Virus record (IMG/VR): IMGVR_UViG_3300025309_000278
Coordinates: 1-34,643 of that record
Reading direction: 5' to 3' (one strand)
Length of the DNA: 34,643 nucleotides
Source of the DNA: a virus
The notes under the pieces are model-generated. The model searched no databases. It was not told where the DNA came from and saw only the letters and a list, made by a program, of their open reading frames with translations. Shown piece after piece: positions 13,350 through 32,001 of this stretch (positions are counted from its first letter, which is position 1; the number at the start of each line of letters is the position of its first letter). A program made the position numbers and the translations under genes.

Positions 13350-13649
13350 ATGCTCACAAAAAACTTTTTCCGTGGATTTATTAAGCTTCATATTCTTCAT
13401 CATGCGTCAAAGGAACCTGTGTATGGTGTTTGGATAATTGAGGAACTTAATAGGCATGGATATAAACTAAGTCCTGGAACTTTGTACCCTATCCTACACT
13501 CTCTTGAAGAAGAGAAATTACTTACATCTCGGAGTGAGACAGTAGAAGGCAAGATTCGTAAATATTACGAAATAACTGATGAAGGTAAAAAAAGACTAGA
13601 AGAATCAAAATTAAAAGTCAAAGAATTAGTAGATGAATTATATCAATGA
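13350..13649 (+). CDS. PadR-family transcriptional regulator
   Basis: A 99-residue winged-helix protein: GFIKLHILHHASKEPVYGVW, then the recognition region YKLSPGTLYPILHSLEEEKL, and the wing/strand GKIRKYYEITDEGKKRLEE. The 'LSPGTLYPILHxLE' and 'RKYYxITxxGKxxL' signatures are diagnostic of PadR. The family usually represses neighbouring efflux or stress genes and releases DNA on binding a small ligand. Its stop overlaps the reading region of the ArsC-like gene, so it heads a three-gene unit with the reductase and the P-type ATPase. Promoter and palindrome lie immediately upstream. Confidence 0.9.
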   Translation: MLTKNFFRGFIKLHILHHASKEPVYGVWIIEELNRHGYKLSPGTLYPILHSLEEEKLLTSRSETVEGKIRKYYEITDEGKKRLEESKLKVKELVDELYQ

Positions 13650-13650
13650 G

Positions 13651-14073
13651 ATGAAAAAAGTCCTGTTTCTTTGTTTCCATAACTCCGCAAGATCGCAAAT
13701 TGCTGAAGGGTTGCTGCGTTATCTCGGCGGAAATAAATATAAGGTTTATTCTGCCGGTATCGAAGCGACTTTTGTCAAACCTCAAGCAATTTTAGTTATG
13801 AAGGAGATTGGCATTGATATATCAAACCAAAGAAGTAAAAAACTTGACCAATTTCTGAATGAACAGCTTGACGAAGTTATAACAGTATGCGATGAGGCAA
13901 ACGAAGCCTGCCCAGTGTTTCCTGGCGCAAAGAATAGAAGGCATTGGAGCATGCCAGATCCTTCCCATGCAAAGGGAACGAAGGAAGAAGTTTTGACTTT
14001 TTATCGTCAAACGAGAGATTTGCTTCGAGAGAAAATAGAATCAGAATTATTAGTAGAAAATAGGGAACCATAA
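13651..14073 (+). CDS. arsC: Arsenate reductase (ArsC, low-molecular-weight phosphatase type)
   Basis: A 140-residue protein; MKKVLFLC is the preferred start (a start six codons earlier would overlap padR). The P-loop CFHNSARS (C-x5-R, residues 8-14) has the HNSARS form typical of thioredoxin-linked ArsC. The second and third redox cysteines are present (ITVCDEANEACPVFPG, residues 80 and 87). The acid loop DPSHAKGT is also there. These three cysteines favour arsenate reduction to arsenite over tyrosine phosphatase activity. It is coupled with padR and lies seven bases before the ATPase gene. No ArsR, ArsB or Acr3 gene is seen nearby, so the substrate in this cassette could differ. Confidence 0.82.
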   Translation: MKKVLFLCFHNSARSQIAEGLLRYLGGNKYKVYSAGIEATFVKPQAILVMKEIGIDISNQRSKKLDQFLNEQLDEVITVCDEANEACPVFPGAKNRRHWSMPDPSHAKGTKEEVLTFYRQTRDLLREKIESELLVENREP

Positions 14074-14080
14074 TAAAAAT

Positions 14081-16609: not shown

Positions 16610-16660
16610 TAATCTTGTCTATTTTTAATATGAATTTTCCTTTCCAAAGGAGGTGTATCC

Positions 16661-16768
16661 ATGAAGAACCAGATCCGCAACCTCTCCAAGTCATCAGCAT
16701 TTCGATTCGTTCTAACGATGGGTATTGTCGACCTGTTTGGTGACATGGCCAATTCCGGTGGAGCGAGC
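16661..16768 (+). pseudogene. Truncated N-terminus of an MFS transporter, fused in frame to the lytic transglycosylase
   Basis: A strong Shine-Dalgarno (AAAGGAGGTG) and ATG start 36 codons: NLSKSSAFRFVLTMGIVDLF, then GDMANSGGAS. This matches the first membrane segment of MFS permeases often encoded next to PadR genes (FRFxLxxGIVxLFxDM-type). It runs in frame into MKKKKNN, the natural start of the next protein, so the rest of the transporter has been lost. It is evidence of a recombination junction near 16750-16770. Confidence 0.6.
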
Positions 16769-17707
16769 ATGAAAAAGAAGAAAAACAATAAAATAAGGAA
16801 AGCATTATTACTTATTTTCATTATTATTCTTCTCTCGTTTCTGGCTATTTATAGCATAAAATCTACTCCTCAGCCGCAAGAGACAACGCAACAGTCTACA
16901 CCTATACCTCTTCAAACATCAAAGCTCTCATCTTGTTCTTTCGTAAGAAGTGATCAGCAAGACCCGCAGTTTTGTAATCATAATTCCTGTACATCTGCTC
17001 TCCCATACAAAAGTACTAAACTCATATCTTACTTTGAAGAAGTTTCTCAGAAGACAAGTATTCCAGCGGAGTTATTAGCTGCAATTGCCCGAATTGAGTC
17101 AACCACAAAAGACTTTACAATCTCTGATTATACAGATGAGCAAATAACTGCTATGGAAGATGTAGAGAAAATTAAAGAGAATATTGACACAATGGTTGAT
17201 AGTGGTAAAAAAGCAGCTTGTCCACGAAGTATTACCGGAGCATTGGGACTCATGCAGATGCAACCGCCAGAGCATATTCATAATGCAATAAGAGAGGAGT
17301 TGCTTAATCGGTATAACAGAGAACAAATGCTTCCATTATTTGCGATAGAGAATGATGCATACAATAGAGAGGCTGCAATACGGTCTTACGAGCAAATAAA
17401 CGCCCATGATGAAGAAGCTATGCTGCATGGAGCAGCATTTGCAGGAATTGATAGACCATTAAAACGAGAAGATTTCTGTCACCCAAAGACAAATCTTTAC
17501 TTAGCTTCAGGACTTATCTTAAAAAAAATGCAAAGACTGGGATATGGGGATAGTACAAAATGGAATCCCACATGGTCAAATGATAAGCAAGCTATTGAAG
17601 CACTTATTACATCTTACTACGGCTGTTTACAATATCCGAATTGCAATACCGGACCATATAGTTATTCAGATGATGTCTACAAAGGTATACAGTCTTGCAA
17701 AGGGTAA
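16769..17707 (+). CDS. Membrane-anchored lytic transglycosylase (SLT-like)
   Basis: 312 residues from the ATG at 16769, which has GGTGGAG five bases upstream. The N-terminus is basic followed by one membrane segment (ALLLIFIIILLSFLAIY), then a Gln/Thr/Pro-rich linker. The catalytic region has the SLT-type IPAELLAAIARIESTT, whose Glu is the probable acid. GALGLMQMQP follows, and later NLYLASGLILKKM; the last helix of the fold ends the protein. Several cysteines (CSF, CNHNSC, CLQYPNC) suggest disulfides outside the cytoplasm. It would cut the glycan backbone of peptidoglycan. The upstream in-frame MFS remnant may add a leader. A role in cell-wall remodelling or secretion is inferred. Confidence 0.75.
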   Translation: MKKKKNNKIRKALLLIFIIILLSFLAIYSIKSTPQPQETTQQSTPIPLQTSKLSSCSFVRSDQQDPQFCNHNSCTSALPYKSTKLISYFEEVSQKTSIPAELLAAIARIESTTKDFTISDYTDEQITAMEDVEKIKENIDTMVDSGKKAACPRSITGALGLMQMQPPEHIHNAIREELLNRYNREQMLPLFAIENDAYNREAAIRSYEQINAHDEEAMLHGAAFAGIDRPLKREDFCHPKTNLYLASGLILKKMQRLGYGDSTKWNPTWSNDKQAIEALITSYYGCLQYPNCNTGPYSYSDDVYKGIQSCKG

Positions 17708-17824
17708 TCTAAATCCACAACTCAAGTTAGTATTTTAAACACACATTGTTCTTAGCATTACTATATCAAAGTTATCAGTTATACTTAAGATAGTACATAA
17801 TTTACATTATAGAAAATTCAGAGT

Positions 17825-17989
17825 TTAAATCTTCTTCCTTAGATATTCTGAATACTTCTCGCACTCTACTGCAAATAATGCACATATTGTCGATAAGCGC
17901 TTTAATGCTTTAAGAAGTTCTCTCCTTTGCTTGTTTATTACTGCAATCTCCTTTTTAGTTATAGCCTTCTCGTTCATCATCTTAAGCAT
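17825..17989 (-). CDS. Small charged helical protein
   Basis: A 54-residue minus-strand reading frame from the ATG at 17989 (MLKMMNEKAITKKEIAV), entirely helical and Lys/Glu-rich (RRELLKALKRL) with a Cys pair at its end. A longer frame upstream would cross the XRE gene in antisense and is unlikely. It is divergent from the XRE gene, a common arrangement for a small regulator or antitoxin, but no Shine-Dalgarno is obvious. Function unknown; may not be real. Confidence 0.35.
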   Translation of the reverse strand: MLKMMNEKAITKKEIAVINKQRRELLKALKRLSTICALFAVECEKYSEYLRKKI

Positions 17990-18058
17990 AAATACTAGCA
18001 CAAATGAATACAAGGAGTATGTCGAAAATGATACAAGCAGTCTATAGGATTGTAGGGT

Positions 18059-18286
18059 ATGGGAAAACCTATAACGCATCGAGACGTTCTCGAGAAATTT
18101 GGTGCAAGACTCCAGAAAGTAAGAAAGGAGAAGCGTGTTAGCCAAGAAGAGCTTGCTGCCCAGTTGTCGATGCATCGTACTTATGTTGGGATGATAGAGA
18201 GAGGAGAAAGAAATCCCACAATAAGAACGCTGTATAAGATTGCTAAAGCGTTAAAGGTGAGTGCTTCTGATTTACTTCCTTTTTAA
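18059..18286 (+). CDS. XRE-family helix-turn-helix regulator
   Basis: A 75-residue protein that is essentially a single Cro/CI-type helix-turn-helix: LQKVRKEKRVSQEELAAQLS, then MHRTYVGMIERGERNPTIRT, then LYKIAKALKVSASDLLPF. The 'SQEELAAxxxxHRTYVGxIERGERNPT' signature is typical of chromosomal or mobile-element XRE regulators. It lies in the accessory cassette, not with the lysogeny genes, so its targets may be the cassette or host genes. A 12-base repeat (ACAAGGAGTATG) lies upstream of this gene and of the response regulator. Confidence 0.85.
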   Translation: MGKPITHRDVLEKFGARLQKVRKEKRVSQEELAAQLSMHRTYVGMIERGERNPTIRTLYKIAKALKVSASDLLPF

Positions 18287-18439
18287 TCATCTTGCCATCA
18301 AAAAATAAATTCCGGAAATAATAAGAAGAACTAGGACTACGCCGACTATTACAGGTGTTCTGTCTGGGGACTTTCTTTGCTCAATAATAGCTCCGTAGGA
18401 AAAAGGCCGTTTATCTGGTCCTTTTTTAAAGAATTTCAT
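18287..18439 (-). CDS. Small single-pass membrane protein
   Basis: A 50-residue frame. A basic N-terminus (MKFFKKGPDKRPFSYGAIIE) is followed by one strong membrane segment (VIVGVVLVLLIISGIYFLM). GAAGGAAGG lies immediately before the ATG. Its stop abuts the XRE gene stop, convergent with it. The lone TM with a short cytoplasmic end could be a membrane anchor or a holin-like or toxic peptide; there is nothing to decide. It is short but well formed. Confidence 0.5.
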   Translation of the reverse strand: MKFFKKGPDKRPFSYGAIIEQRKSPDRTPVIVGVVLVLLIISGIYFLMAR

Positions 18440-18536
18440 CCTTCCTTCAGTATATCAAGAATTTTACTTATTTTTATACACAAGGAGTATGCACTTCTTA
18501 CACTTTTCACACAAAAAAAGGTTAAAATAAATTTTT

Positions 18537-18968
18537 GTGAAGCAAAAACCAAACCGCGAGCATAAAAAATTTCCCAAACTGCGATTTTTAGTCATTGATG
18601 ATGAGGTTGCTATTGGTGAGGCTATCTGTTTTGCGATTGATATGACTGGAAATGATACGGTTCGCTTTTCCAATCCTGCTGACGCAGTAAAAGATTTTAG
18701 AAAAAACCCCAGTAAATATGATGGTGTGTTTACTGATTTAAGTATGCCTCAGATGAGTGGAGAAATGGTCATAGAGAGAATAAGAAAAATTACCCAAGAG
18801 ATCCCTATTGTTATTTGCACTGCAACAGGAGGAATCTTTACTACTGAGGATCTGGTTAAAATGAACGTTTTATCTCTTATTGCAAAACCTTTTGAGTTGA
18901 GCGATATTGAATTAGCAGTCAAGCAAATACAAGAAAACTATATGATGCGAAATAGCCTACTAAAATAG
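18537..18968 (+). CDS. Stand-alone response-regulator receiver domain
   Basis: A 143-residue receiver with no output domain. The phosphorylation pocket is intact: acidic pair D21/D22 (FLVIDDE), acceptor D67 (GVFTDLSMPQMSG), T95 (IVICTAT) and K117 (LIAKPFE). A basic N-terminal extension of about 15 residues precedes the fold, and the start is GTG. Single-domain receivers usually act by protein contact in phosphorelays. No histidine kinase is in the window, so the partner would be in the host. It ends three bases before the convergent portal gene. Confidence 0.85.
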   Translation: MKQKPNREHKKFPKLRFLVIDDEVAIGEAICFAIDMTGNDTVRFSNPADAVKDFRKNPSKYDGVFTDLSMPQMSGEMVIERIRKITQEIPIVICTATGGIFTTEDLVKMNVLSLIAKPFELSDIELAVKQIQENYMMRNSLLK

Positions 18969-22048: not shown

Positions 22049-22140
22049 ATCTGTGTAATCTGAATATATCAAAAGTGAGCCTATAAGTCCAGCGGATTTC
22101 TTAATTTTCTTATTTGTCTTACTACCTTCTCAAGAAGCAA

Positions 22141-22193: not shown

Positions 22194-22724
22194 CTAGTCG
22201 GCAATCTTCTGCTCATCAAAGCCAATCTTGGAAGTGCCGTTGCATGGATTATCATCCAGCCAGACATTTCCAATGTTATACCACCACGGATCGCTTGGGT
22301 CTGTTCTTACCCAGGCATCGTAGTACGAATTCTGGTTAATCGAAAAGTGGAATTGGCTTCCTGAGTTGTAACTCAGTAGGTATGGTGCTGCTGTGTTAGT
22401 AGCATTCGTACCTGGGATGTAGGCATCATGAGTTGCCCATCCGTTTGGTCCATTACCGTTGGTCCAAACAGCGTAGTTACTCAAGCTACATCCTGACCAG
22501 GTATACTTCATGGTAGTGGGACTGCAGGTTCCACTATCGTAACAGTATCCTTCGTTACTTACTGAATACCAATACTGGCCAGGCCCATATGCTGTGTAGT
22601 AACCGCCATCTTGTGCGTAAATAGATACTGCAGCATGGGCAGCTTGCGCTCCTGTCGTAAAGACGACGAGGGCCATGAGTAATCCAAAGAACATTTTTGA
22701 TAGATTTTTCATTTTGTTTTTCAT
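22194..22724 (-). CDS. Secreted aromatic-rich protein with four cysteines
   Basis: A 176-residue protein with a clear signal peptide (MKNLSKMFFGLLMALVVFTT, cleavage near AQAAHA). The mature part is unusually rich in Tyr, Trp, Asn and Gly (DGGYYTAYGPGQYWYSV; ATHDAYIPG; DPWWYNIGNVW) with Cys in CYDSGTC, CSL and CNG. Such composition suits a disulfide-bonded surface or adhesive protein. It follows the PepSY-like gene by 31 bases and lies in the same transcription unit. A likely lysogenic-conversion product; function not known. Confidence 0.6.
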   Translation of the reverse strand: MKNKMKNLSKMFFGLLMALVVFTTGAQAAHAAVSIYAQDGGYYTAYGPGQYWYSVSNEGYCYDSGTCSPTTMKYTWSGCSLSNYAVWTNGNGPNGWATHDAYIPGTNATNTAAPYLLSYNSGSQFHFSINQNSYYDAWVRTDPSDPWWYNIGNVWLDDNPCNGTSKIGFDEQKIAD

Positions 22725-22755: not shown

Positions 22756-23499
22756 TTACAATCCCAGCGTATTTGTGTAGCTGAGAAGGTCGCCTCCGAC
22801 AGTAAATCCTACCTGTACAAAAGCCTTAACTCCCTCTACTTCTTTGGATTCATCTGTGAATCTGAAAAAGTAATTTGTTCCACCCTTTTCACCAGTGCTT
22901 GCAGTTAATTTGCTTAAATCAGCACCTGCATTTTTGGTGATGAACTCTCTGGCTTTTGCTTCTAATTGCTCAGGAGAGAACCTTGCTTCGGTGTTATATT
23001 CCTTAGCTGGTTGTCCTTTTGCAACTGGAGCTGGTCCGAATTGAACGATTTTATTCGTTTTAGTATCGACCTCAACGTAGTCTTGTCCCACTCTGTAGTA
23101 TTCAGCTATAACAGAATTGCTGTAGCTTGATTTAGCGGTAGAGACATACTCAGGATTTCCCTGATTGCCAGTTAAAGCTTGGATGTTTGCGACTGCTGCA
23201 CCTCTCTCTGTCGCAGGTCTTGCGAGACTTGCTTCTTTGGCGTTTGAGCCTTGTCTGCGTAATTCCTCTAATTGCTTAGCGGTATCACCAGTAAAGCGTA
23301 CTTCGCCTTCATGCGTGCCTTTTTCTGTTTGGCCAGCATTTACAGCTTGTTCAGCTTTGGTTCGCATTTGCTCTGTCAGGGCATCGAGAGTTTCTTGCGG
23401 ACTTAATGATTGTGCTGATACAGCAGTTACTAATCCGGTTAAAAGTGCTACTCCAACTATTGCTGGAAGTATTACTTTTCCTTTATTTTTGATTGTCAT
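22756..23499 (-). CDS. Secreted PepSY-like protein
   Basis: A 247-residue exported protein. The signal peptide (ILPAIVGVALLTGLVTAVSA) is followed by a helical region and then a PepSY/YcdB-like domain: VEVDTKTNKIVQFGP, then RFSPEQLEAKAREFITKNAG, NYFFRFTD and LLSYTNTLGL. The same block order occurs in the anti-sigma factor upstream (23721-24614). A strong Shine-Dalgarno (AAAGGAGGTG) precedes it. The promoter (23656-23684) is followed by an operator-like palindrome shared with the phage repressor gene. PepSY proteins often inhibit or sense envelope proteases; I infer an envelope-stress partner. Confidence 0.65.
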   Translation of the reverse strand: MTIKNKGKVILPAIVGVALLTGLVTAVSAQSLSPQETLDALTEQMRTKAEQAVNAGQTEKGTHEGEVRFTGDTAKQLEELRRQGSNAKEASLARPATERGAAVANIQALTGNQGNPEYVSTAKSSYSNSVIAEYYRVGQDYVEVDTKTNKIVQFGPAPVAKGQPAKEYNTEARFSPEQLEAKAREFITKNAGADLSKLTASTGEKGGTNYFFRFTDESKEVEGVKAFVQVGFTVGGDLLSYTNTLGL

Positions 23500-23617
23500 T
23501 TATTTTCACCTCCTTTCTTGTTAATAAACCCAAGATTTATAATTAATCAATTGGGTTTTCAAATAAAAAAGATATGAAGTAAATTTGGGATTTTTGAAGT
23601 GGGGTAGGTTATAAAAG

Positions 23618-23641
23618 GTAAGAATAATCTTACTTTTCTTA
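23618..23641. promoter_or_regulatory. Palindromic operator copy 2, shared with the repressor promoter
   Basis: GTAAGAATAATCTTAC (23618-23633) is a perfect 6-bp inverted repeat with a 4-base centre. An adjacent TTTTCTTA block (23634-23641) extends the match to 24 bases. An identical 16-mer lies at 31088-31103, preceded by the same extension on the opposite strand. It lies about 15 bases after the -10 box of the leftward promoter. Confidence 0.6.
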
Positions 23642-23655
23642 CTTCTCATACACCA

Positions 23656-23684
23656 AGTATCTAGTAATTGTTGAGAATTGTCAA
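23656..23684 (-). promoter_or_regulatory. Sigma70-type promoter for the secreted PepSY-like gene
   Basis: On the minus strand, TTGACA (23679-23684) is separated by 17 bases from GATACT (23656-23661). The gene starts at 23499 after a long leader that holds the operator and a hairpin (AACCCAA with TTGGGTT, about 23526-23556). The leader ends in a strong Shine-Dalgarno. Confidence 0.6.
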
Positions 23685-23720
23685 TAGCTATTTCTTAGTG
23701 GTGATTTTAGAGGATAGTTG

Positions 23721-24614
23721 TTATTCTGCAGGTACGTTGGAGAAGCTTACTAGCTGGCCACCCTGTGTATATGTGATGGTTAATTTTTGTTTATCGCTCT
23801 TCCAAATAAAGACGTAATTTATTTGTTCACCTTCGCCTTTAGTATCAGCTTCTAGATTAAAATTCTCTAAATTTATTTTGCCGATTGCCTTCTCGTGTTT
23901 TTTTATAAAATCATTGGCTAATTGTTCTGCCTCTGCTTGTGTGTACCGTGGGGTATAATCATATTCTTTTTCAGGGCTTGACCAGCGCGAACCATCCTTA
24001 TTTTCTCCCCATGTTCCTTGCTTTGGAGACATCTCTATCACTTTGTTGGTTTTGATGTCTATAACAAATAAATCAAAATCTACAGTATAGGTTTCTATTA
24101 CTGGTTTTTCATCAGGTTTATTAGGATTCTTAACTACACATTCATACTTCACGGGTGCGTCCGGTCTATCTAAGAAGTCTCTTATGGCTGCTACTGCTTT
24201 TTCCTGTTCCTCCGGAGCTCTTGCACTAACAGAACACCACTCCTGTTGTGTTTGCTTGTATTTCTGAGTTTCCTTATCTCTGTATGATGGGTCGTTAAAT
24301 AAAAGGTTTGACAGTTCCTGTTGAAGTTGGTTTCTGAGGTTCACAAGTGCCTCTAGAATTGATCCTTTTGCCATAACCTGGGAATTGGTCGTTACTCCGA
24401 AGAATAAGACCACCAAAACAATTGCTGCAAAAGCATAGGGTACACTAGTTGCCCAGAAGGATTTGCGTTGGGGAAAATATGTTTTCACTTCCTGCTCCAG
24501 GTCTTCTTCTTCATGTATTTTGGATAAGATTTGCTTCTCCAATGCTTTTATGTGCATTGTGTCTTTTTGTTCTTCCTGTTCAAATGCTGATTTGATTACA
24601 TTTTTGAATTTCAT
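23721..24614 (-). CDS. Membrane anti-sigma factor with extracytoplasmic PepSY-like domain
   Basis: A 297-residue protein. The cytoplasmic N-terminus (residues 1-55) is a short acidic helical domain (DTMHIKALEKQILSKIHEEE), the usual size of a sigma-binding region. One membrane segment follows (SVPYAFAAIVLVVLFFGVTT). The outside part carries a PepSY-like domain (VIDIKTNKVIEMSP; RYTQAEAEQLANDFIKKH; INYVFIWKS; LVSFSNVPAE) homologous in order to the secreted protein downstream. Its ATG overlaps the sigma factor's stop by four bases, which is the standard sigma/anti-sigma coupling. Ligand unknown. Confidence 0.7.
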   Translation of the reverse strand: MKFKNVIKSAFEQEEQKDTMHIKALEKQILSKIHEEEDLEQEVKTYFPQRKSFWATSVPYAFAAIVLVVLFFGVTTNSQVMAKGSILEALVNLRNQLQQELSNLLFNDPSYRDKETQKYKQTQQEWCSVSARAPEEQEKAVAAIRDFLDRPDAPVKYECVVKNPNKPDEKPVIETYTVDFDLFVIDIKTNKVIEMSPKQGTWGENKDGSRWSSPEKEYDYTPRYTQAEAEQLANDFIKKHEKAIGKINLENFNLEADTKGEGEQINYVFIWKSDKQKLTITYTQGGQLVSFSNVPAE

Positions 24615-25114
24615 ATTAGTGCTTCTTTGAGCTTGATAATCGCTCTATAAAAACGCATCTTGACTGCTGCCTCTTTAGTATCCAGGGCAACAGCTATTTC
24701 TTTGAATTCCATTTCCTCAACAATCCGGAGTCTTATAATTTCCTGTTCTTCTGGTTTCAGCTTCAGTAACTCTCTCTTTACCCTCTCTATATCCTTTTCG
24801 TGGGTAATCTCTGCATCCATCATGTCCTCTACATCACTATTGTCAAAGAGTTCTATGTTATTTTGCTCTATAGAAACTGTTTTCTTTTTGGACCTCATCT
24901 GGTCTGCAATCAAGTGCCTGCAGATAGTAAGCAGCCAGCTTTTTAGCTCGCCTTCGCTTTTGAAATTAAATTGTTTATAATTTTTCATTGCTTTCAGGAA
25001 AGTCTCCTGTACTATGTCGTCCACATCTTCCTGTTGATACAGGGATTTCCTGGCAAAAAAGTACACGAGCCTAATATAATTTTTGACTACTTCATCGAAC
25101 GGTGGCTTCTGCAT
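24611..25114 (-). CDS. ECF RNA polymerase sigma factor (RpoE-like)
   Basis: A 167-residue protein with both ECF domains. Sigma2: IRLVYFFARKSLYQQEDVDD, then IVQETFLKAMKNY and the -10 contact region LKSWLLTICRHLIADQMRSK. Sigma4: LKLKPEEQEIIRLRIVEEME, then FKEIAVALDTKEAAVKMRFY. The acidic linker (residues 85-110) is longer than usual. It directs RNA polymerase to its own regulon when released from the anti-sigma factor encoded next. A sigma70-type promoter (25139-25167) lies upstream. Its promoter targets could not be deduced from the window. Confidence 0.85.
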   Translation of the reverse strand: MQKPPFDEVVKNYIRLVYFFARKSLYQQEDVDDIVQETFLKAMKNYKQFNFKSEGELKSWLLTICRHLIADQMRSKKKTVSIEQNNIELFDNSDVEDMMDAEITHEKDIERVKRELLKLKPEEQEIIRLRIVEEMEFKEIAVALDTKEAAVKMRFYRAIIKLKEALI

Positions 25115-25138
25115 AATTAAATGGTCCGCTTCAACCGT

Positions 25139-25167
25139 TCTATATAAGTAAACGGAAGAGTTGGCAA
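25139..25167 (-). promoter_or_regulatory. Promoter of the ECF sigma/anti-sigma operon
   Basis: On the minus strand TTGCCA (25162-25167), a 17-base spacer and TATAGA (25139-25144) are near consensus. It lies in the gap between the DUF2292 gene and the sigma gene. Confidence 0.5.
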
Positions 25168-25210
25168 AAGTAACATTTTACAATTATATCGAAAATTGCT
25201 TGCTTAGGTA

Positions 25211-25435
25211 TTAGATCTCGATATTACTTTGCTTTTTGGGGAATGTTCCGGCGCTTCCGCCTTCCTCTGGAGTGATACGTTTTTGCTCTACAATCTCTTT
25301 CCGGTAGGGTTTACCGTTCTGAATATAAATATCAACTCGGCCATATTCCACCTTCCGGATGTCCTCCAGGATTTTAGCTTCTGCCTCTGTGACAATGACT
25401 GTTATTTTCTTTGGTTCTTTATTTGTTTGGCTCAT
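25211..25435 (-). CDS. DUF2292-like small protein
   Basis: A 74-residue protein with the typical DUF2292 (YezD-like) core: VTEAEAKILEDIRKVEYGRV, then DIYIQNGKPYRKEI. The tail is polar. The family is widespread in bacteria and phages, and its function is unknown to me. It overlaps the end of the terminase gene by 17 bases and so belongs to the leftward early/packaging transcript. Confidence 0.65.
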   Translation of the reverse strand: MSQTNKEPKKITVIVTEAEAKILEDIRKVEYGRVDIYIQNGKPYRKEIVEQKRITPEEGGSAGTFPKKQSNIEI

Positions 25436-26975
25436 ATTTTGAACGTTTTAATAGGGCAATATGCCAGTAGATTAAAGCCAGCCAGAAGTCGTTTGGTCCG
25501 GTGTTTGCCCATTCACGCTTCACCTGGCCCAGCTTATCAGTTACATTGCGTGCATACATCGTCTGAGCGTGTTCTATAAGCATTTTGAAGGTAGGACTGC
25601 TGTTGGACAGGGAAAACTTGATTTCTCCTTTGCGGAGCGCTGAGATGGTATCATCCATGATTCTGGTCCTGGAGGAGAAAACCTTTACTTCTTCTTCAAA
25701 CTCCGGCTCTTTTCCTTCCTTCTCATCAAAAAACCTTATTACCTCCAACATCTTTGGGTCATCTTTGAACCAGCTCAGGTAAACTCTGTAGGGGAATTGC
25801 TTGGCCAACTCGAATGCTTCTCTGGTATACGGTTGGCCATCGACTACTACCACTCTGATGTCAAAAAATGTTATAAGGTCTGCTGCCTGCTGCCATCGGT
25901 CTTTGCCCTCATGGTCGGTTAGTATGCCTATCCAGAAGATTCCCAGCTTATTGCCTATAATCAAATGATTTCCTTTGCCTGTGCCTGCTCCGGTGTCTAT
26001 GCCCATTACGTTGTATTCCTCTGTAGAATCGGCCTTCACGTCTGTCACGTTGCGTATAAAAAGGCTTGCTGGGATTCTTTGGTCAGCTGATAAATAAGGT
26101 AGTCCTAAAATCATGTTATAGAAGTAGGTGTCATCATCTGCATCCTTTTTTTCTTTTATTAAATCCTGGGCTGTTCTCCAGGGTGCATGCATTTGGCTTA
26201 TCCAGTATCCGGACATTGGTCTGCCTGGGTATTTTGCCTCCCAGCTTCCATTTTCATTGATGTCCTGGGGAGTTATAAGTTTTTTACACTCTTGGCAGAT
26301 ATAAATGCCACGCTCCTCATCTACGTTTTTGTCCCATTCCATATGCTGTCTGAATCTGCAGTGGGGGCAGTTAAAGCGCCAGTATTTCTGGTCTGATTGC
26401 TGGAAGATCTTGTCTACTCCAAACTCCGGTACTGTAGGAGTAGAGAAGTAGTGCTGGCTTCTGATTTTTGAGTAGCCCATACGGGAGGTGTAATCCCTGA
26501 TAACGTCTGTTTTTGACTTGTCCAGTTCGTCATGAATGTTTCTGTCGGAAGAAAGCATGATGGCCTCCCGCTCTGTGAATGTTCCTTTGAAGTAAATAAA
26601 GGATTTGCCTATTTGTTTCTGCTCTATTGAGTCTATGCTCTTAGGGGCAACGCCCTGCTTTACTACTGGGTTTACATCCATTATCCGGTTTACCTTTGAC
26701 TGGACGAACTTAAGGACATCATCTCCGGTGGGCAGGGTATAGATCTGGTTGATTCCCCAGAATCTTGCACCATGCAGAGTTCTTAGGATCTCCATTGTGC
26801 TTGCTCCAACCTGGGAGGCTTTTCTTATAACTTGGATGGGTGTGCGGTCAGCATAAATATCCAGCATGAAGCGGTGGTTCTCAAACTCGATAGGCTCACC
26901 ATTTTCGTTTTTAATCTTATTGTTTAGTATCCAGTGGAGAATACTGATTTTGTCTTTATTTATGTCGTTTGCCAT
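25419..26975 (-). CDS. Terminase large subunit (GpA-like, with zinc ribbon)
   Basis: A 518-residue packaging motor. The ATPase part has a deviant Walker A typical of the GpA class (VIRKASQVGAST, 49-60) and a Walker B-like acidic site (NIHDELDKS, 147-154). A zinc ribbon follows (CPHC at 203-206 and CQEC at 227-230). The nuclease part begins YNVMGIDTGAGTG (D327), with further acidic residues in VVVVDGQPY and NDFWLALIYW. It translocates DNA through the portal and cuts concatemers. Its start overlaps the small-subunit gene by 20 bases. Confidence 0.88.
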   Translation of the reverse strand: MANDINKDKISILHWILNNKIKNENGEPIEFENHRFMLDIYADRTPIQVIRKASQVGASTMEILRTLHGARFWGINQIYTLPTGDDVLKFVQSKVNRIMDVNPVVKQGVAPKSIDSIEQKQIGKSFIYFKGTFTEREAIMLSSDRNIHDELDKSKTDVIRDYTSRMGYSKIRSQHYFSTPTVPEFGVDKIFQQSDQKYWRFNCPHCRFRQHMEWDKNVDEERGIYICQECKKLITPQDINENGSWEAKYPGRPMSGYWISQMHAPWRTAQDLIKEKKDADDDTYFYNMILGLPYLSADQRIPASLFIRNVTDVKADSTEEYNVMGIDTGAGTGKGNHLIIGNKLGIFWIGILTDHEGKDRWQQAADLITFFDIRVVVVDGQPYTREAFELAKQFPYRVYLSWFKDDPKMLEVIRFFDEKEGKEPEFEEEVKVFSSRTRIMDDTISALRKGEIKFSLSNSSPTFKMLIEHAQTMYARNVTDKLGQVKREWANTGPNDFWLALIYWHIALLKRSKYEPNK

Positions 26976-27531
26976 AGTGTCTTTTAATAACTAGGTCTAT
27001 TTCTCCACCGATTTGGTCTTCCTCCGGATTGGGTGGTGCTTGCTCGCTCTCATCGATAGAGTGCCTTACTTCTGTTTTTGCTGATGACTCACCCCATTCA
27101 GTGCGGTGCATTTCCCATAGGTACTTAATCTCCAGCACTGATACGTCCTGTGTTTTGGCCTGCTTCTGCAGCTTTGCCATTTTCTGGATGAGAATATCTG
27201 TAATAAGGAATTTGCGTTTCTTTCTGAACCTGTCGGCTTTGTCCTTCAGTTCTGCCAGTTCTTCTTCCATCCTTAGATCTGTACGTGCCACCCATTGATA
27301 CTTCTTGGACCAGGTTTCTATGGTCGTATCGCTTGGTTTTTTGCCGAGCCGGTATGCAAAATCCGCCCCAGTTTCACCCAAGACTTGCCCAACCTTTTCC
27401 CACACGTCCAGAAGCTTCTTAATGCTGCCTGCTTCACAATAAAGTAGCCAGGCTGCGTACTGTTGTTCAGTTTCAGCTGGCATCTTGGAAGTGGTTATTT
27501 TTGCTTGTTTGTTTGGTTTCTTTGTTGCCAT
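26956..27531 (-). CDS. Terminase small subunit-like protein
   Basis: A 191-residue protein. A central helix-turn-helix-like region (GKKPSDTTIETWSKKYQWVA) is followed by a long charged coiled coil (MEEELAELKDKADRFRKKRK). The C-terminus is acidic. 'TxxxWxKKYxW' is a common signature of phage small terminases. It overlaps the large subunit start, the classic TerS-TerL order. It would bind the packaging site, and a pac/cos element should be near, but I cannot identify one. Confidence 0.72.
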   Translation of the reverse strand: MATKKPNKQAKITTSKMPAETEQQYAAWLLYCEAGSIKKLLDVWEKVGQVLGETGADFAYRLGKKPSDTTIETWSKKYQWVARTDLRMEEELAELKDKADRFRKKRKFLITDILIQKMAKLQKQAKTQDVSVLEIKYLWEMHRTEWGESSAKTEVRHSIDESEQAPPNPEEDQIGGEIDLVIKRHYGKRHK

Positions 27532-27596
27532 AGGCTTTTACAGGTGTAACTGGTCCATTCGATCTGAATGAAGCCCACAAATCGCCACACAGGGGC

Positions 27597-28853
27597 TTAT
27601 AATTTGAGCCTCTGGCATCTTTTCCTTATTAAATCGCAGAATAGTGGATCTCTCTCCATAAGATATGCAACCCTTCCTATTTTGTGAGCTGCCATCAGAG
27701 TACTTCCTGAACCGCCGAATAAATCAACTACAAGCTGGCCGATTCTGCTGCCACCTTTTAATGCTTTCATAATCAGCCACTCCGGTTTCTCTGTCGGGTG
27801 GACCATTTCTGTCACTGCTTTTCGTGGCATGTCCCAGACATCACTTTCATTCGCTTCACCGAAGAACTGATGACGCTCTCCCTGCCTCCAACCGTACATG
27901 AGTGCCTGAGCTTTTGATTTGCCTGTCGGCCTCTTACCTTTCATTATTTGTTCGTATTGCTTTTTGTAGTCACCCCAGCCGATTGCAAAGTTGGGTTTCA
28001 CCCAGACGATATTGCTGCTGAAGACAAACCCTGAATTTAAGAACTGGTAATAAAAAAGAGGGTAGGAGGAATATCCGGTGCAGACATAAATTGTCCCTCC
28101 TGCTTTTAAGACCATACTAAAGTTCTGGAAGAATGCTTCAGTGAATGCTCTGAACTCATCCTGGGTCTGGTCATCTCCCAGAATGATTCCTTGGTCTGTA
28201 TGGAACTTACCTTTTTTCTCCATGCTTTTGTGAGCTACGTTGTAGGGAGGGTCTGTAAATATAATGTCTGCTGTTTTACCGTCCATAAGTTTTTTAACGT
28301 CATTTGGATTGGTTGAGTCTCCGCACATAACTCGGTGCGGACCTATCTGATAAATTTCACCGAGTTTGGATATTGGTTCTTTTATTTGTTTTATTTCTTC
28401 CTCTGTATCCCAAGGTTTTTCTTCTTCCTCCTGATCCAGAAACATTGTGGTATCCAAGAGATTGCTGATTTCTACTTCATTGAATCCGGTAAGTGATAAG
28501 TCAAAGTCTGCTTTTGTCAGGTCGGTTATAATCTCTGCCAGTTTTGTTTCATCCCACTGGTCTTCGATTTTATTTAATGCAAGATTGAGTGCTTTTTCTT
28601 TTTCCAACGGAATAGAAACGGTGCTATAAGGAACTTCTGTCCAACCCAGTTCTGTTGCTGCTCTGACTCTTTTTTCACCACCGACAATCACATTTTCTCT
28701 ACCCTTGGAGGTGTTTATCACAATAGGCACAGGCATTCCGAATTCCTTGATGGAATTCTTCAACTGCTCTATAACGCTGCGAGTTACCTTTCTGGGGTTA
28801 TACTCTGCAAAGCGCAAAAGTGTTATTTTTATTGTTGGTATTTTTGTTTCCAT
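27597..28853 (-). CDS. ParB-like nuclease domain fused to beta-class DNA methyltransferase
   Basis: A 418-residue protein. Residues about 8-130 are a ParB/Spo0J-type domain (LRFAEYNPRKVTRSVIEQLK; GGEKRVRAATELGW). Residues about 160-418 are an adenine (N6)/cytosine (N4) methyltransferase with DPPY at 201-204 (motif IV). It has a C-terminal VVDLFGGSGSTLMAA (motif I) that follows it in sequence, the beta-class order. PTEKPEWLI is also characteristic. Such fusions are common in phages, where they modify phage DNA against host restriction. No restriction enzyme gene lies beside it. Confidence 0.88.
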   Translation of the reverse strand: METKIPTIKITLLRFAEYNPRKVTRSVIEQLKNSIKEFGMPVPIVINTSKGRENVIVGGEKRVRAATELGWTEVPYSTVSIPLEKEKALNLALNKIEDQWDETKLAEIITDLTKADFDLSLTGFNEVEISNLLDTTMFLDQEEEEKPWDTEEEIKQIKEPISKLGEIYQIGPHRVMCGDSTNPNDVKKLMDGKTADIIFTDPPYNVAHKSMEKKGKFHTDQGIILGDDQTQDEFRAFTEAFFQNFSMVLKAGGTIYVCTGYSSYPLFYYQFLNSGFVFSSNIVWVKPNFAIGWGDYKKQYEQIMKGKRPTGKSKAQALMYGWRQGERHQFFGEANESDVWDMPRKAVTEMVHPTEKPEWLIMKALKGGSRIGQLVVDLFGGSGSTLMAAHKIGRVAYLMERDPLFCDLIRKRCQRLKL

Positions 28854-29014
28854 AGTTTGTTTAATATTTTTTTAATCTTCAGCCAGATTCTTTTGTGTAA
28901 TGACATACCGTTTGTATCCACAGGGAGAATAGGTATCTCTCTTTTTTTCTCCTCCTCCTGCAAATGAGGTGATATATAGTCTTCTTTCAGTAATGGATAA
29001 ATAAGGTCTTTCAT
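28829..29014 (-). CDS. Small basic protein upstream of the methyltransferase
   Basis: A 61-residue protein: an N-terminal leucine/tyrosine stretch (MKDLIYPLLKEDYISPHLQE), then a Lys-rich helical tail (RIWLKIKKILNKLWKQ). It overlaps the gene before it by four bases (ATGA) and the methyltransferase start by 25 bases, which suggests a coupled chain of genes. No family recognised; the tail looks amphipathic and membrane-binding. Confidence 0.5.
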   Translation of the reverse strand: MKDLIYPLLKEDYISPHLQEEEKKREIPILPVDTNGMSLHKRIWLKIKKILNKLWKQKYQQ

Positions 29015-29265
29015 ACTTTTAACAATTGCTGAATTACTTTAAGGACTTTTTCCCTCTTACCGATATCTTCTGCGTAGCGTGCTATTACATCCTTTTTAGT
29101 CAGCTGCTCCTCTCTTGCTCCAAGAGGTGAGCGCCTGGTTACTGTTTCAATGACTTTATCGTCATCGACATCCGCCAGCGTTTCTATTGCAATCTCCATT
29201 CGCAACATTTCCTCCTGGACGCTGTTATGGATGTCTTCTAATAAATCTGTTCTGGTTTTTACCAT
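29011..29265 (-). CDS. Small helical protein of the early operon
   Basis: An 84-residue charged helical protein (LLEDIHNSVQEEMLRMEIAI; REKVLKVIQQLLKV). The composition is typical of phage early accessory proteins. It is followed by a four-base overlap with the 61-residue gene and lies four bases after the stop of the next small gene upstream. Function is unknown. Confidence 0.5.
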   Translation of the reverse strand: MVKTRTDLLEDIHNSVQEEMLRMEIAIETLADVDDDKVIETVTRRSPLGAREEQLTKKDVIARYAEDIGKREKVLKVIQQLLKV

Positions 29266-29269
29266 AAGT

Positions 29270-29443
29270 TTAGTATTCGATTAGTAACCGATTCTTTTTA
29301 AAGGTTGGTTCATCCCATTCCAGAAGCTCTCCGGTTTTAATAACGATAACCATATAAATTGTTTTTCCTGCTTCGTTGGTTTTTTGTCCCTCGAAGTGAT
29401 ACTTTGGATTTTTGGGTGCTGGTCCTTTTGGTCCTGGTTTCAT
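29270..29443 (-). CDS. Small protein with GGAGGTGG ribosome-binding site
   Basis: A 57-residue frame (MKPGPKGPAPKNPKYHFEGQ, then NEAGKTIYMVIVIKTGELLE) with an excellent Shine-Dalgarno (GGAGGTGG, seven bases from ATG). Its ATG overlaps the preceding gene's stop by four bases (ATGA). It has a Pro/Lys-rich start and two predicted beta strands. Function is unknown. The gene is short but its translation signals are convincing. Confidence 0.6.
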   Translation of the reverse strand: MKPGPKGPAPKNPKYHFEGQKTNEAGKTIYMVIVIKTGELLEWDEPTFKKNRLLIEY

Positions 29444-29748
29444 ACTGTCTCCACCTCCTTTCCGATTTTTTGGACGATAAATATTTCTTTCTTCTTATCC
29501 CAGCGCCAGTATTCTTTACTGGTAGATGCAGGACGAGGGAATCGAACCATTCTCTCCTGGTCATCTCTTGCTCTCTGGGAAAAGTATTTGCTGGACACCT
29601 GAATAAATCTGATTTCTGTTTTGTCAATTGCTATAAAATCCCAGCAATAAAAAAAGTCCTGTGGTTGCCACTTGGAGACTCGTGGTCTTTCAACCAGATA
29701 TCCTTCTTTTTTTAATTGTTCGTATGCTATTTTTTCTGTTTTGTTCAT
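29440..29748 (-). CDS. PD-(D/E)XK-like nuclease-fold protein, tentative
   Basis: 102 residues from the ATG at 29748, which overlaps the replication gene's stop (ATGA). DFIAIDKTEIRFIQVSSKYF has the spaced acidic residues and the final QxSxK that resemble the D...E/Q-x-K core of restriction-like and VRR-type nucleases. The remainder is aromatic and basic (RPRVSKWQPQDFFYCWDF). It is a common companion of phage replication genes, but the match is by motif only. It could be a Holliday-junction or repair nuclease. Confidence 0.5.
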   Translation of the reverse strand: MNKTEKIAYEQLKKEGYLVERPRVSKWQPQDFFYCWDFIAIDKTEIRFIQVSSKYFSQRARDDQERMVRFPRPASTSKEYWRWDKKKEIFIVQKIGKEVETV

Positions 29749-30482
29749 GCTGGTTCGTTGGCATAGCGCCAATAAAATAATTTTTCCATGTCTTCAACTC
29801 CGATAGCATCCTTGCAGTAAGAGAGAGCAATGCCAAGCCTTCCCTGTCTTTTTCTTTTAAATGCTAATTTAACGTGTTTGAAGAACCCGCGACTCGGTTC
29901 TCCAGATAGACCCAGCTCTACCCAGATTCGTTGTGCTTCTGCCTGCCATTCGTAAAAGATTTGACTGTCGTTTTCAGGAGCGATAGGGTGGTGGTTTAGT
30001 AGTTCTCCTACCGATTTGATTCCTTTTTTATTGACAGAGCCATTAGGCTCAACAGTAAAATTGTCATTGTCTTTGTTAGTATCTTTGTATGTTCTCATTT
30101 TGAGACGCTTGTCAGTATCATTTTGAGACGGCCCGTATCTCTTATTGATATAGGGAGTCTCACTTTGAGATTCGTTTTTAATCATTACCGATTCGTACCA
30201 TTTGCCAGTTCCTCTCAAGAAAGCAGGTTGCTCCGGATGCTTTTCCAAGAGGCCTATCTTGAGACCTTTATTAATTGCACGAAATACAGTTGCTCTGCCA
30301 ATATCCAGATAATCACCGAGGGTTTCTTTCTTGGCATAGCACCAACCCATCTGAGTGTTTTTAGGATTGTTGGAAAGGTTATAAATTAAATCGAAGACGC
30401 AGTATTCATTGATACTTAAACCCAGTCTAATTCTTGCATCGTGGTTTATAGTTGTGTAATTGAATCTGACCATTTTTAGCAT
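29745..30482 (-). CDS. Phage replication initiator with winged helix
   Basis: 245 residues from the ATG at 30482 (MLKMVRFNYT). Residues about 25-95 form a winged helix, with GWCYAKKETLGDYLDIGRAT then VFRAINKGLKIGLLEKHPEQ, as in HTH_36-type replication initiators. A polar linker and a helical C-terminal region (SRGFFKHVKLAFKRKRQGRL) follow, the latter resembling DnaD/helicase-loader parts. Position after the Cro-like gene and before recombination and packaging genes supports replication. The start is uncertain because no good Shine-Dalgarno is seen. Confidence 0.65.
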   Translation of the reverse strand: MLKMVRFNYTTINHDARIRLGLSINEYCVFDLIYNLSNNPKNTQMGWCYAKKETLGDYLDIGRATVFRAINKGLKIGLLEKHPEQPAFLRGTGKWYESVMIKNESQSETPYINKRYGPSQNDTDKRLKMRTYKDTNKDNDNFTVEPNGSVNKKGIKSVGELLNHHPIAPENDSQIFYEWQAEAQRIWVELGLSGEPSRGFFKHVKLAFKRKRQGRLGIALSYCKDAIGVEDMEKLFYWRYANEPA

Positions 30483-30560
30483 GTTGTTTTCCAATTTGAC
30501 TGTTGATATTCATTTTCATTTTTCACCCGTTTCTTTTCATTAGCTGGCATTGGGTACTTT

Positions 30561-30713
30561 TTATAAACACCTTGGAATCAGTAGAGCAAACAATTTGCTC
30601 AACAGCCAAACCAGTCCAATTATTGAAAGTAAGAGAAAAATCCAGGGTCGGAGTTTTCGGAACATCAATCTTCTTTTTCTGGCACTCAATCGGTACTTTA
30701 ATTCTTCATTCAT
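30561..30713 (-). CDS. Small membrane protein of the early operon
   Basis: A 50-residue frame: a strongly basic N-terminus (KYRLSARKRRLMFRKLRP) then one membrane helix (WIFLLLSIIGLVWLLSKLFA). AAGGAT lies five bases before the ATG, and the upstream regulator gene stops just before it. One membrane segment and a basic head are compatible with a holin-like, superinfection or anchor peptide; none is proven. The 66 bases between it and the replication gene hold only a doubtful 24-codon frame. Confidence 0.5.
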   Translation of the reverse strand: MNEELKYRLSARKRRLMFRKLRPWIFLLLSIIGLVWLLSKLFALLIPRCL

Positions 30714-30721
30714 AGCTATCC

Positions 30722-30979
30722 TTATATTGCAATAGTTCGTTTGGTGTACCAGTCTTTAGCTGGGATACCTAAAAACTCACCGACTTTTTTAACTGTGGAA
30801 GGGCGTGGGTCACCATCTAAAACTAGAACACGTCTGACCGTTTGGGGGGATAGTTCTACTTCTAAGGCAAGTTGAAAACGAGAGAGTCCTTTAGTAAGCC
30901 TTATTTCATCAAATAACTCACTGTTAACTCTCTTTTCTTTATTGATAAAGACTGTCTTTTTTGGTGTGCTTGCTGTCAT
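30722..30979 (-). CDS. Cro-like XRE helix-turn-helix regulator
   Basis: An 85-residue protein with a helix-turn-helix at residues about 25-65: LFDEIRLTKGLSRFQLALEV, then ELSPQTVRRVLVLDGDPRPS and VKKVGEFLGIPAKDWY. It is the first gene of the leftward early operon and is divergent from the repressor gene, the usual position of Cro or an early regulator. Its promoter overlaps the AAAGTTTATTGAGAT element. Predicted leader is nearly absent: the -10 box lies about 12 bases from the ATG. Confidence 0.75.
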   Translation of the reverse strand: MTASTPKKTVFINKEKRVNSELFDEIRLTKGLSRFQLALEVELSPQTVRRVLVLDGDPRPSTVKKVGEFLGIPAKDWYTKRTIAI

Positions 30980-30990
30980 TTATATTACCT

Positions 30991-31027
30991 AATGTACAAA
31001 CTCTTGTAATTTATCTCAATAAACTTT
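30991..31027 (-). promoter_or_regulatory. Leftward early promoter with AAAGTTTATTGAGAT element
   Basis: On the minus strand TTGAGA (31014-31019), 17 bases, TACATT (30991-30996). The -35 is part of AAAGTTTATTGAGAT (31013-31027), also found at 13252-13266 (minus) and 32801-32815 (plus). TGAACATA precedes it by nine bases, as in the 32801 copy. Confidence 0.55.
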
Positions 31028-31050
31028 ATGGTTGTTTATGTTCATTACTG

Positions 31051-31079
31051 TTGACAACTATCATTATACTGTGTATAAA
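31051..31079 (+). promoter_or_regulatory. Rightward repressor promoter
   Basis: TTGACA (31051-31056), 17 bases, TATAAA (31074-31079): a strong sigma70-type promoter. The operator palindrome begins eight bases after the -10 box, so the product could autorepress. Confidence 0.65.
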
Positions 31080-31103
31080 TAAGAAAAGTAAGAATAATCT
31101 TAC
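31080..31103. promoter_or_regulatory. Palindromic operator copy 1 at the repressor gene
   Basis: TAAGAAAA leads into GTAAGAATAATCTTAC (31088-31103), a perfect 6-bp inverted repeat. It ends 18 bases before the repressor ATG. The same 24-base arrangement occurs in inverse orientation at 23618-23641, with differences only at the two centre positions when aligned in that orientation. Confidence 0.6.
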
Positions 31104-31121: not shown

Positions 31122-31574
31122 ATGCAGAAAAGAAAAAAACCTTTGCTCAAAAGTTCGGACGATTTTGCTTCTATTGGCGAGTACGTCAGCTATATCCGTG
31201 AGACCAGAGGATATACGCTGCAGGACGTTGTGGAACTGGTAAAAACTGCTATTAAAAATCAGGCACTTGATTCACAATGTTCCCTTTCGAGAGGATATCT
31301 TTCTAACCTCGAAACAGGAAAACATGCACACCCTTCACCTTTTAAATTAAAAGCCCTCGCTTTTATTTATAAAATTCCTTATGAGTCATTGCTGCAAAAA
31401 GCCGGATATTGGGAAAAAAGCATAGACAAATTAAAACAGGACACCGCTCTTACGCTGATGCTGAAGGAGGTCGATGATATGACTGACTCTGAGGTAACGT
31501 CGGTTATCGATTATATCGATTTTGTGAAGTCCAGACGGACATCAAATTATGAAAAACGCCCAAAAAAGGGCTAG
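31122..31574 (+). CDS. CI-like XRE repressor
   Basis: A 150-residue protein: helix-turn-helix (residues about 18-78, with YVSYIRETRGYTLQDVVELV and SLSRGYLSNLETGKHAHPSP), then LKALAFIYKIPYESLLQKAG and a helical C-terminus (LMLKEVDDMTDSEVTSVIDY). The combination of HTH, ImmA-type gene next in line and divergent Cro-like gene is the standard lysogeny control layout. It probably binds the operators at 31080-31103 and 23618-23641. The ImmA gene overlaps its end by 26 bases. Confidence 0.8.
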   Translation: MQKRKKPLLKSSDDFASIGEYVSYIRETRGYTLQDVVELVKTAIKNQALDSQCSLSRGYLSNLETGKHAHPSPFKLKALAFIYKIPYESLLQKAGYWEKSIDKLKQDTALTLMLKEVDDMTDSEVTSVIDYIDFVKSRRTSNYEKRPKKG

Positions 31575-32001
31575 GAAGATTGTACGAAAGTATAACCTGT
31601 CCACTGCCCCTATAGATTTAAATAAAATTATAGATAACGAGAATTTAGCCCTAGACGAATGGGATTTTAAAGGTCGGGTAAAGGAAGTATATGTAGGTGA
31701 CAGTATTGGTATTCTTCAAAGCGCAACTCCACGAAAAAAAAGAGAACTGATTGCCCATGCGTTGGGACATCATTTTATGCACGAAGGAAACCACATGTTT
31801 TTCGAGGAGAATGATCAGTTTGCAAAATTCAAACAAGAATATGAAGCGCAAAGCTTTGCTGCAGAATTACTTATGCCTCGCTCACTATTTAATAAGATGA
31901 AGCATTTATCGGTCAAAGAGATTGCTAACTATTTTTATGTAAATGAGGACCTCGTAAAATTTTATTTAAAGTTTTTTTTCAAAGGAGAAGTATGCCGATA
32001 G
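31549..32001 (+). CDS. ImmA/IrrE-family protein with altered catalytic motif
   Basis: A 150-residue protein. The family core reads RELIAHALGHHFMHEGNHM and EAQSFAAELLMPRSLF, with ID...NLALDEWDFKG at the start. In ImmA proteases the motif is HExGH. Here it is HALGH, so the catalytic Glu is replaced by Ala while both zinc-type histidines remain. Known ImmA proteins cleave the phage repressor after induction. This one may be inactive, or the Glu may be supplied elsewhere. It overlaps the repressor gene by 26 bases. Confidence 0.8.
   Translation: MKNAQKRARKIVRKYNLSTAPIDLNKIIDNENLALDEWDFKGRVKEVYVGDSIGILQSATPRKKRELIAHALGHHFMHEGNHMFFEENDQFAKFKQEYEAQSFAAELLMPRSLFNKMKHLSVKEIANYFYVNEDLVKFYLKFFFKGEVCR

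Follow-up and report, generated by a model that had tools for sequence, protein, structure and literature searches.

The virus record IMGVR_UViG_3300025309_000278 of IMG/VR, a DNA stretch of 34,643 nucleotides (34.6 kb) which was analysed at its full length and is referred to here as the window, carries two copies of an operator-like half-site array. One copy lies in a putative immunity region. Here, an XRE-type helix-turn-helix (HTH) immunity repressor of 150 amino acids, Rep, is encoded at 31122-31574 on the plus strand (Pfam HTH_19, 9.6e-08; PHROG transcriptional regulator, 8e-06), and its gene is directly followed by that of an M78/ImmA-like partner (31549-32001, plus strand; Pfam Peptidase_M78, 2.2e-13). 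A Cro-like HTH protein of 85 amino acids (Pfam HTH_3, 1.6e-05) is encoded divergently at 30722-30979 on the minus strand. The other copy is located about 7 kb from this switch, at the promoter of a gene for a secreted protein of 247 amino acids with a putative PepSY fold (22756-23499, minus strand). It is followed by a gene for a secreted aromatic-rich protein (22194-22724, minus strand), an open reading frame (ORF) of no family whose homologues follow the PepSY gene in relatives as well. We refer to these two genes as the cargo genes. The window further contains genes for a terminase, a portal, a major head protein, a methyltransferase and a serine integrase.

The original prediction had placed the 16-mer GTAAGAATAATCTTAC at 23618-23633 and 31088-31103, and it was found exactly at both coordinates. 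Its extension to a match of 24 bases was right in length but not in identity, since 22 of the 24 bases agree between the two copies, which lie on opposite strands (31080-31103, plus; 23641-23618, minus). The full element is a 25 bp composite of GTAAGA-like half-sites, RTAWGW-N3-RTAWGW-N4-WCWTAY, in which some half-sites are direct repeats 9 bp apart and some form an inverted pair. In the rep/cro control region the operator occupies 31079-31103 (plus strand) and reads ATAAGA-AAA-GTAAGA-ATAA-TCTTAC. At the cargo promoter it covers 23618-23651 (minus strand) with four half-sites, GTATGA-GAA-GTAAGA-AAA-GTAAGA-TTAT-TCTTAC, of which the one beyond the composite had been missed by the original prediction. 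Allowing up to three mismatches, the 16-mer occurred at three places in the window compared to a chance mean of 0.5 matches, the third being a loose match at 16086 with 3 mismatches. The composite was present twice compared to 0.0 expected per window in 60 Markov samples; its consensus had been defined with these sites already in view. Moreover, when the inner palindrome was searched with at most one mismatch in 19 virus records, 12 of the 13 sites were located at rep, cargo or integrase promoters, while a reversed control pattern gave 2 sites. A chance origin of the shared site, considered improbable from the beginning, was ruled out by these 16-mer, palindrome and composite counts against controls.

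As the original prediction stated, both sites lie downstream of a TTGACA promoter, with -35 and -10 hexamers ahead of each. The predicted rep promoter, TTGACA-17-TATAAA, is found at 31051-31079 on the plus strand (-35 at 31051-31056, -10 at 31074-31079), and the predicted cargo promoter, TTGACA-17-GATACT, at 23656-23684 on the minus strand (-35 at 23684-23679, -10 at 23661-23656). The TTGACA of the cargo promoter is invariant in 11 aligned rows; that of the rep promoter is variable and some relatives lack the hexamer. A promoter scan included the cargo promoter, yet the number of promoter-like matches there was at the level of shuffled sequence (2 compared to a mean of 2.1). In the rep region the scan required a T as the last base of the -10 hexamer, hence the promoter at 31051 is absent from its output.

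For the comparison with related elements several entries were removed before counting: L003 and L004 (same contigs as L006 and L005), L005 (99.99% the window), L056 (contains L007), L059 (shares the cassette stretch of L017), L074-L083 (duplicate contigs) and L100 (contig ends within rep). The composite matched 20 times in 30 records or loci with a total of 713,756 bases, a small overcount as pieces of some records overlap slightly, and all matches were located at the rep/cro control region or at the promoter of the PepSY-fold gene. This count includes L056 and L059 and falls to 17 once duplicates are removed; for L008, L015, L016, L019 and L023 the scan was limited to the fetched locus. The operator was present at the cargo promoter in 10 of 10 distinct cassettes (window, L006, L007, L009, L010, L011, L012, L017, L055 and L057), with one departure from the composite in L010. 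The proposal that repressor and secreted-protein gene are connected had been made to depend on related phages carrying the palindrome at this promoter, and it withstood the comparison. In the rep/cro region an operator-like site was found between the divergent HTH genes in all nine regions with a window-type recognition helix (window, L007, L009, L011, L012, L017, L055, L057 and L094). The consensus was derived from part of these sites, and the fair held-out cases are L055, which is close to L007, as well as L057 and L094. The held-out L057, whose Rep is 79% identical to that of the window, has the operator at both loci, and the held-out L094 has it at rep/cro. Wherever both loci of a close relative were readable, both contained the operator. 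Besides, the operator is kept beside PepSY proteins that are as low as 31% identical to the one of the window. A third locus was observed at the integrase gene, where the inner palindrome lies 18 nt (L009, L012 and L100) or 36 nt (L011) ahead of the start. This was the case in four of nine readable elements; in the window, L007, L055, L057 and L094 the palindrome is absent there.

The presence of the composite follows the recognition helices of the immunity proteins. Elements with the site have the Rep recognition-helix residues SRGYLSNLESGK with little or no variation, and in six phages the recognition-helix residues are invariant in both Rep and the Cro-like protein. In the five elements L095-L099, with a Rep 42-54% identical to that of the window, the rep/cro region has no composite. 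The Rep helices of L095-L098 read SHGYLRNLESGE or SYAYISNIESRR, and the Cro helix is altered, too; L099 was outside the helix alignment and has the same match figures as L098. Since the composite is missing where the recognition helices differ, the operator goes with the Rep and Cro-like proteins, and its binder may be either of them or both. A repeat search of relatives with a different immunity region (L058 and L014) for another shared operator yielded nothing interpretable. L095-L099 make up a second type of element in Patescibacteria. They share the rep/M78 pair, lack the GTAAGA composite at rep/cro and have a distantly related serine recombinase (about 25%); a DUF3800 gene is also present in L096-L099. 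As a different candidate binder we considered the XRE gene at 18059. It was rejected, as G003, G005 and G007, which were fully read, have sites yet no match to this gene, while G006, G008 and the Daviesbacteria contig do match it.

It is conceivable but rather unlikely that the Cro-like protein is the main binder, in which case the cargo genes would be turned off at an early stage of lytic growth. In favour of this, it is conserved better than Rep: its copies in five relatives share 73-79% identity with that of the window, compared to 53-60% for Rep from these relatives. Furthermore, its recognition helix SPQTVRRVLV does not vary among elements with the site and is altered in L095-L098. However, this is a matter of degree, as the two proteins of known switches usually recognize a common set of operators.

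The order of an HTH repressor gene directly followed by an M78-domain gene resembles ImmR/ImmA of ICEBs1 and its relatives (PMC6540685 and PMC10233336). In contrast to ImmR/ImmA, the partner lacks the catalytic HEXXH. Its glutamate is replaced by alanine (HALGHH) in the alignment of 8 of 8 and 6 of 6 further sequences, i.e. 14 of 14 with distant elements included. According to PMC7907104, HEXXH is essential for the protease activity of IrrE. Therefore, the M78 partner is predicted to be non-proteolytic and a cleavage of Rep is unlikely. A better analogy is Rir of Streptococcus thermophilus, which according to the same paper acts on a prophage repressor without cleavage, and the M78 partner may have a Rir-like binding role.

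Several observations weigh against the assignment of the operator to the immunity switch. In L011 and L017 the inner site at the cargo promoter (GTATGAATATACTTAC) differs from their own rep site. The similarity of rep and cargo sites within the same phage exceeded that of permuted pairs only modestly (0.0095 for eight phages and 0.083 for five representatives). The best sign of co-change, itself a modest one, is a GTAAGT..ACTTAT variant shared by the rep and cargo loci of L007 and L055, and L011 and L017 go against it. The L010 record has the cargo site but no rep, although it is linear and may be a fragment. In addition, the Rep and Cro helices co-vary in L095-L098, so this pattern cannot separate the two binders, and the structure model of Rep is poor, with a predicted local distance difference test (pLDDT) score of 49, so that the helix was assigned from Pfam and the alignment. 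Finally, the motif is not exclusive to phage. In 11 whole host genomes (about 10.9 Mb) there are nine exact composites, of which seven lie at rep/cro or cargo promoters; the other two are found in two genomes that lack this repressor, each at the promoter of an AbrB-like gene with efflux genes behind it. These two sites are the main result against exclusiveness.

They also speak for a host AbrB-type regulator that reads the sites at both phage loci, as do PF04014 genes in the host genomes G020-G022. Nevertheless, we regard such a regulator as very improbable. The inner pair at those host sites is GTATGA and not GTAAGA, and the sites track the phage repressor rather than the host: the Daviesbacteria prophage L057, which has rep, carries them, whereas the Daviesbacteria prophage L058, in which no rep was found, does not. 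A phage-borne AbrB-type binder was rejected as well, as four of the six phage records searched, including the window, have no PF04014 gene. The two host sites, GTATGA composites at L069:2038-2062 and L070:8724-8748, each at the promoter of a host AbrB-like gene followed by a membrane-fusion/ABC efflux operon, are probably autoregulatory.

The shared architecture of the two window sites, its conservation, its restriction within phages to these promoters and its absence where the recognition helices differ are direct observations. Taken together, we consider it probable that the two copies are operators of the phage's own immunity switch and that the cargo genes are off or throttled under plentiful repressor and released on induction. 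The mechanism that we infer, including binding, the identity of the binder, the sign of regulation and its timing, would be as follows. Rep, together with or opposed by the Cro-like protein, would bind the GTAAGA half-sites. At 31079-31103 the operator lies across the start of the rep promoter, ahead of the cro gene, and would thereby serve autoregulation and the decision between lysis and lysogeny. At 23618-23651 the four half-sites would cover the start of the transcript that runs into the genes of the two secreted proteins. The cargo promoter would be silent or reduced in activity as long as the repressor is abundant, and become active on prophage induction or before repressor builds up after infection.

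From the spacing of the hexamers, the cargo operator would span roughly positions -2 to +32 of the predicted transcript. A site that extends across the predicted start into the early part of the transcript speaks for genes that are repressed in the lysogen and released on induction, more than for genes that are expressed in the lysogen. The original prediction had proposed lysogenic conversion, i.e. a lysogen in which the gene stays on, or is activated, with repressor bound at the cargo operator. Its first half, an operator common to the repressor and the secreted-protein gene, agrees with all ten cassettes; the conversion itself fits the position of the operator less well than repression does, although this position was deduced from hexamers. 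We therefore rank conversion as possible but second best, and judge it to be unlikely. Consistent with it, the cargo operator and its promoter are conserved together, and the rep promoter of the window, whose operator is similarly placed, must still fire in the lysogen, so that negative autoregulation would allow some cargo expression. Moreover, three direct half-sites, GTAAGA-CAA-ATAAGA-AAA-TTAAGA, lie upstream of the g21551 promoter (22099-22122, minus strand), where activators bind. This weaker candidate, a looser array also seen in L006, L009, L012 and L057 and in a different form in L010 and L017, is a lead only.

The interpretation of the cargo site is complicated by a candidate leader ORF of 42 amino acids (MRSK..WVY; 23521-23649, minus strand), the first codons of which lie inside the operator. 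Its ATG is part of the GTATGA half-site and would be near the first base of the transcript. Across the aligned rows it comprises 39-46 codons and ends at a hairpin. One could argue that the conservation at this site is due to coding, with the block being the start of the leader peptide and its operator likeness secondary. All 11 rows keep the ORF open, their indels come in multiples of three, openness by chance over five clusters amounts to 7e-4, and there is a synonymous excess between the window and L057 (P 0.015). However, the first codons contain 15 invariant bases with zero synonymous change, and the block is built of half-sites which are 9 bp apart, just as in the rep site. Besides, the coding-selection tests were weak: four of six pairs gave no sign of selection (P 0.305 to 1.0), and the pair of window and L006 reached 0.0755. 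Thus, we give the coding explanation hardly any weight. The hairpin itself (AACCC..GGGTT; 23526-23559, minus strand) has a nearly invariant stem and precedes the ribosome-binding site of the PepSY gene. Six of its pairs were examined for covariation and showed no compensatory change, and an Rfam search of the window found no family, so we dropped its reading as an RNA structure.

The cargo genes belong to a cassette between terminase and portal which is headed by a gene for an extracytoplasmic function (ECF) sigma factor (24611-25114, minus strand; Pfam Sigma70_r2, 1.4e-15; TIGR02937, 6.4e-27). An adjoining membrane protein is probably its anti-sigma factor (23721-24614, minus strand), and the cassette comprises two further genes. 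For the PepSY-fold protein (model pLDDT 79.7), the top Foldseek match was the C-terminal domain of YpeB, which we take to be of the PepSY kind (E 3.3e-05; TM-score 0.40 by query), while DUF4901 (2.6e-04) was below the cut-off. The outer part of the membrane protein resembles the PepSY protein, and the latter shares about 30% identity with the anti-sigma genes of relatives. Hence, the secreted PepSY protein seems to be a look-alike of the outer (sensor) domain of the anti-sigma factor. Only tentatively, one might envisage a layered coupling of the switch to this envelope-signalling cassette of sigma factor, membrane anti-sigma factor and secreted look-alike. A leader ORF translated from a nearly leaderless transcript would have its first codons within the four-half-site operator, an attenuator-like hairpin would come next, and the catalytically dead M78 partner would release the repressor as a binding antirepressor. 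The 5' leader of the sigma gene (25115-25200) is itself conserved in eight sequences including the window (AAATGTTACTTTT.., with a CCGTT../..AACGG hairpin by eye), which points to possible RNA control.

Relatives found with the terminase lie in Patescibacteria, namely Daviesbacteria, Gottesmanbacteria, Shapirobacteria, Nomurabacteria and others. Among them, the Daviesbacteria prophage L057 is closest to the window, with 79% identity in Rep and 84% in the terminase, which points to a similar host for the window phage. The serine integrase points to a temperate phage, and L055 and L057 are part of bacterial metagenome-assembled genomes, on contigs of 384,795 and 396,322 bases. No repeat pair marking the integration boundaries was found in the Daviesbacteria flanks, and the tail and head genes in the left part of the window had no match in the Daviesbacteria stretches fetched. 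Directly beyond the integrase end of L057, a tRNA-Gly (ccc) at L057:1412-1486 is a possible attachment site. With the cargo gene as query, neither DNA nor protein searches of phage records gave a match, and the repressor gave one distant match at 26%. As a single query the repressor had no viral relative, whereas terminase and alignment queries did find relatives. A phylum-wide draw of 379 genomes contained no repressor relative beyond two already found; in a class-wide draw 10 of 373 genomes had one. Apart from this, the window carries an island of cargo genes on the opposite strand among the structural genes (13350-18968), with PadR, ArsC-like, P-type cation ATPase, transglycosylase, XRE and response regulator genes; its PadR, ArsC and ATPase recur in L044. 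In L017, the terminase large subunit (L017:6865-8404) gave two overlapping matches, one for residues 1-299 and one for residues 300-518, which indicates a frame break or an assembly error.

An operator of the immunity region that recurs at promoters outside of it is known from other phages. In phage P1 the immunity repressor C1 acts on 22 operators with a 17-bp asymmetric consensus, which are dispersed over many sites in the phage and are also found at the promoters of C1 itself (PMC8546580). In contrast, the window phage has only two to three operator loci with arrays of 6-bp half-sites, one of them guarding a secreted-protein cassette. Similarly, repressor sites are spread beyond the immunity region in mycobacteriophage L5 and cluster A (PMC9283540). 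However, the more than 20 stoperators of cluster A are 13-bp asymmetric sites, many of them intergenic, which halt elongation, whereas the composites described here are all at promoters. In Listeria an XRE CI/Cro-type pair controls the genes for a pair of secreted proteins, a metzincin and a TIMP-like protein (PMC8235301). There, the secreted genes sit in the phage-remnant locus of the switch itself, unlike the distant cargo genes and duplicated operator of the window. The window case works like these systems; new are the host group, the half-site array and the cargo beside sigma and anti-sigma genes. A literature search at the level of titles and abstracts found no description of such operators in phages of Patescibacteria, whose lysogeny regulation seems to be little charted. 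If our interpretation is true, it would supply concrete rules for the composition of the operator, together with a candidate repressor and a cargo promoter which that repressor controls, and all of these could be tested in E. coli. It would also tie the cargo to the decision between lysis and lysogeny across phages in genomes of Daviesbacteria, Gottesmanbacteria, Shapirobacteria and Nomurabacteria. In these phages of tiny, poorly known groundwater bacteria, the DNA of the dormancy switch seems to govern a carried secreted-protein gene as well.

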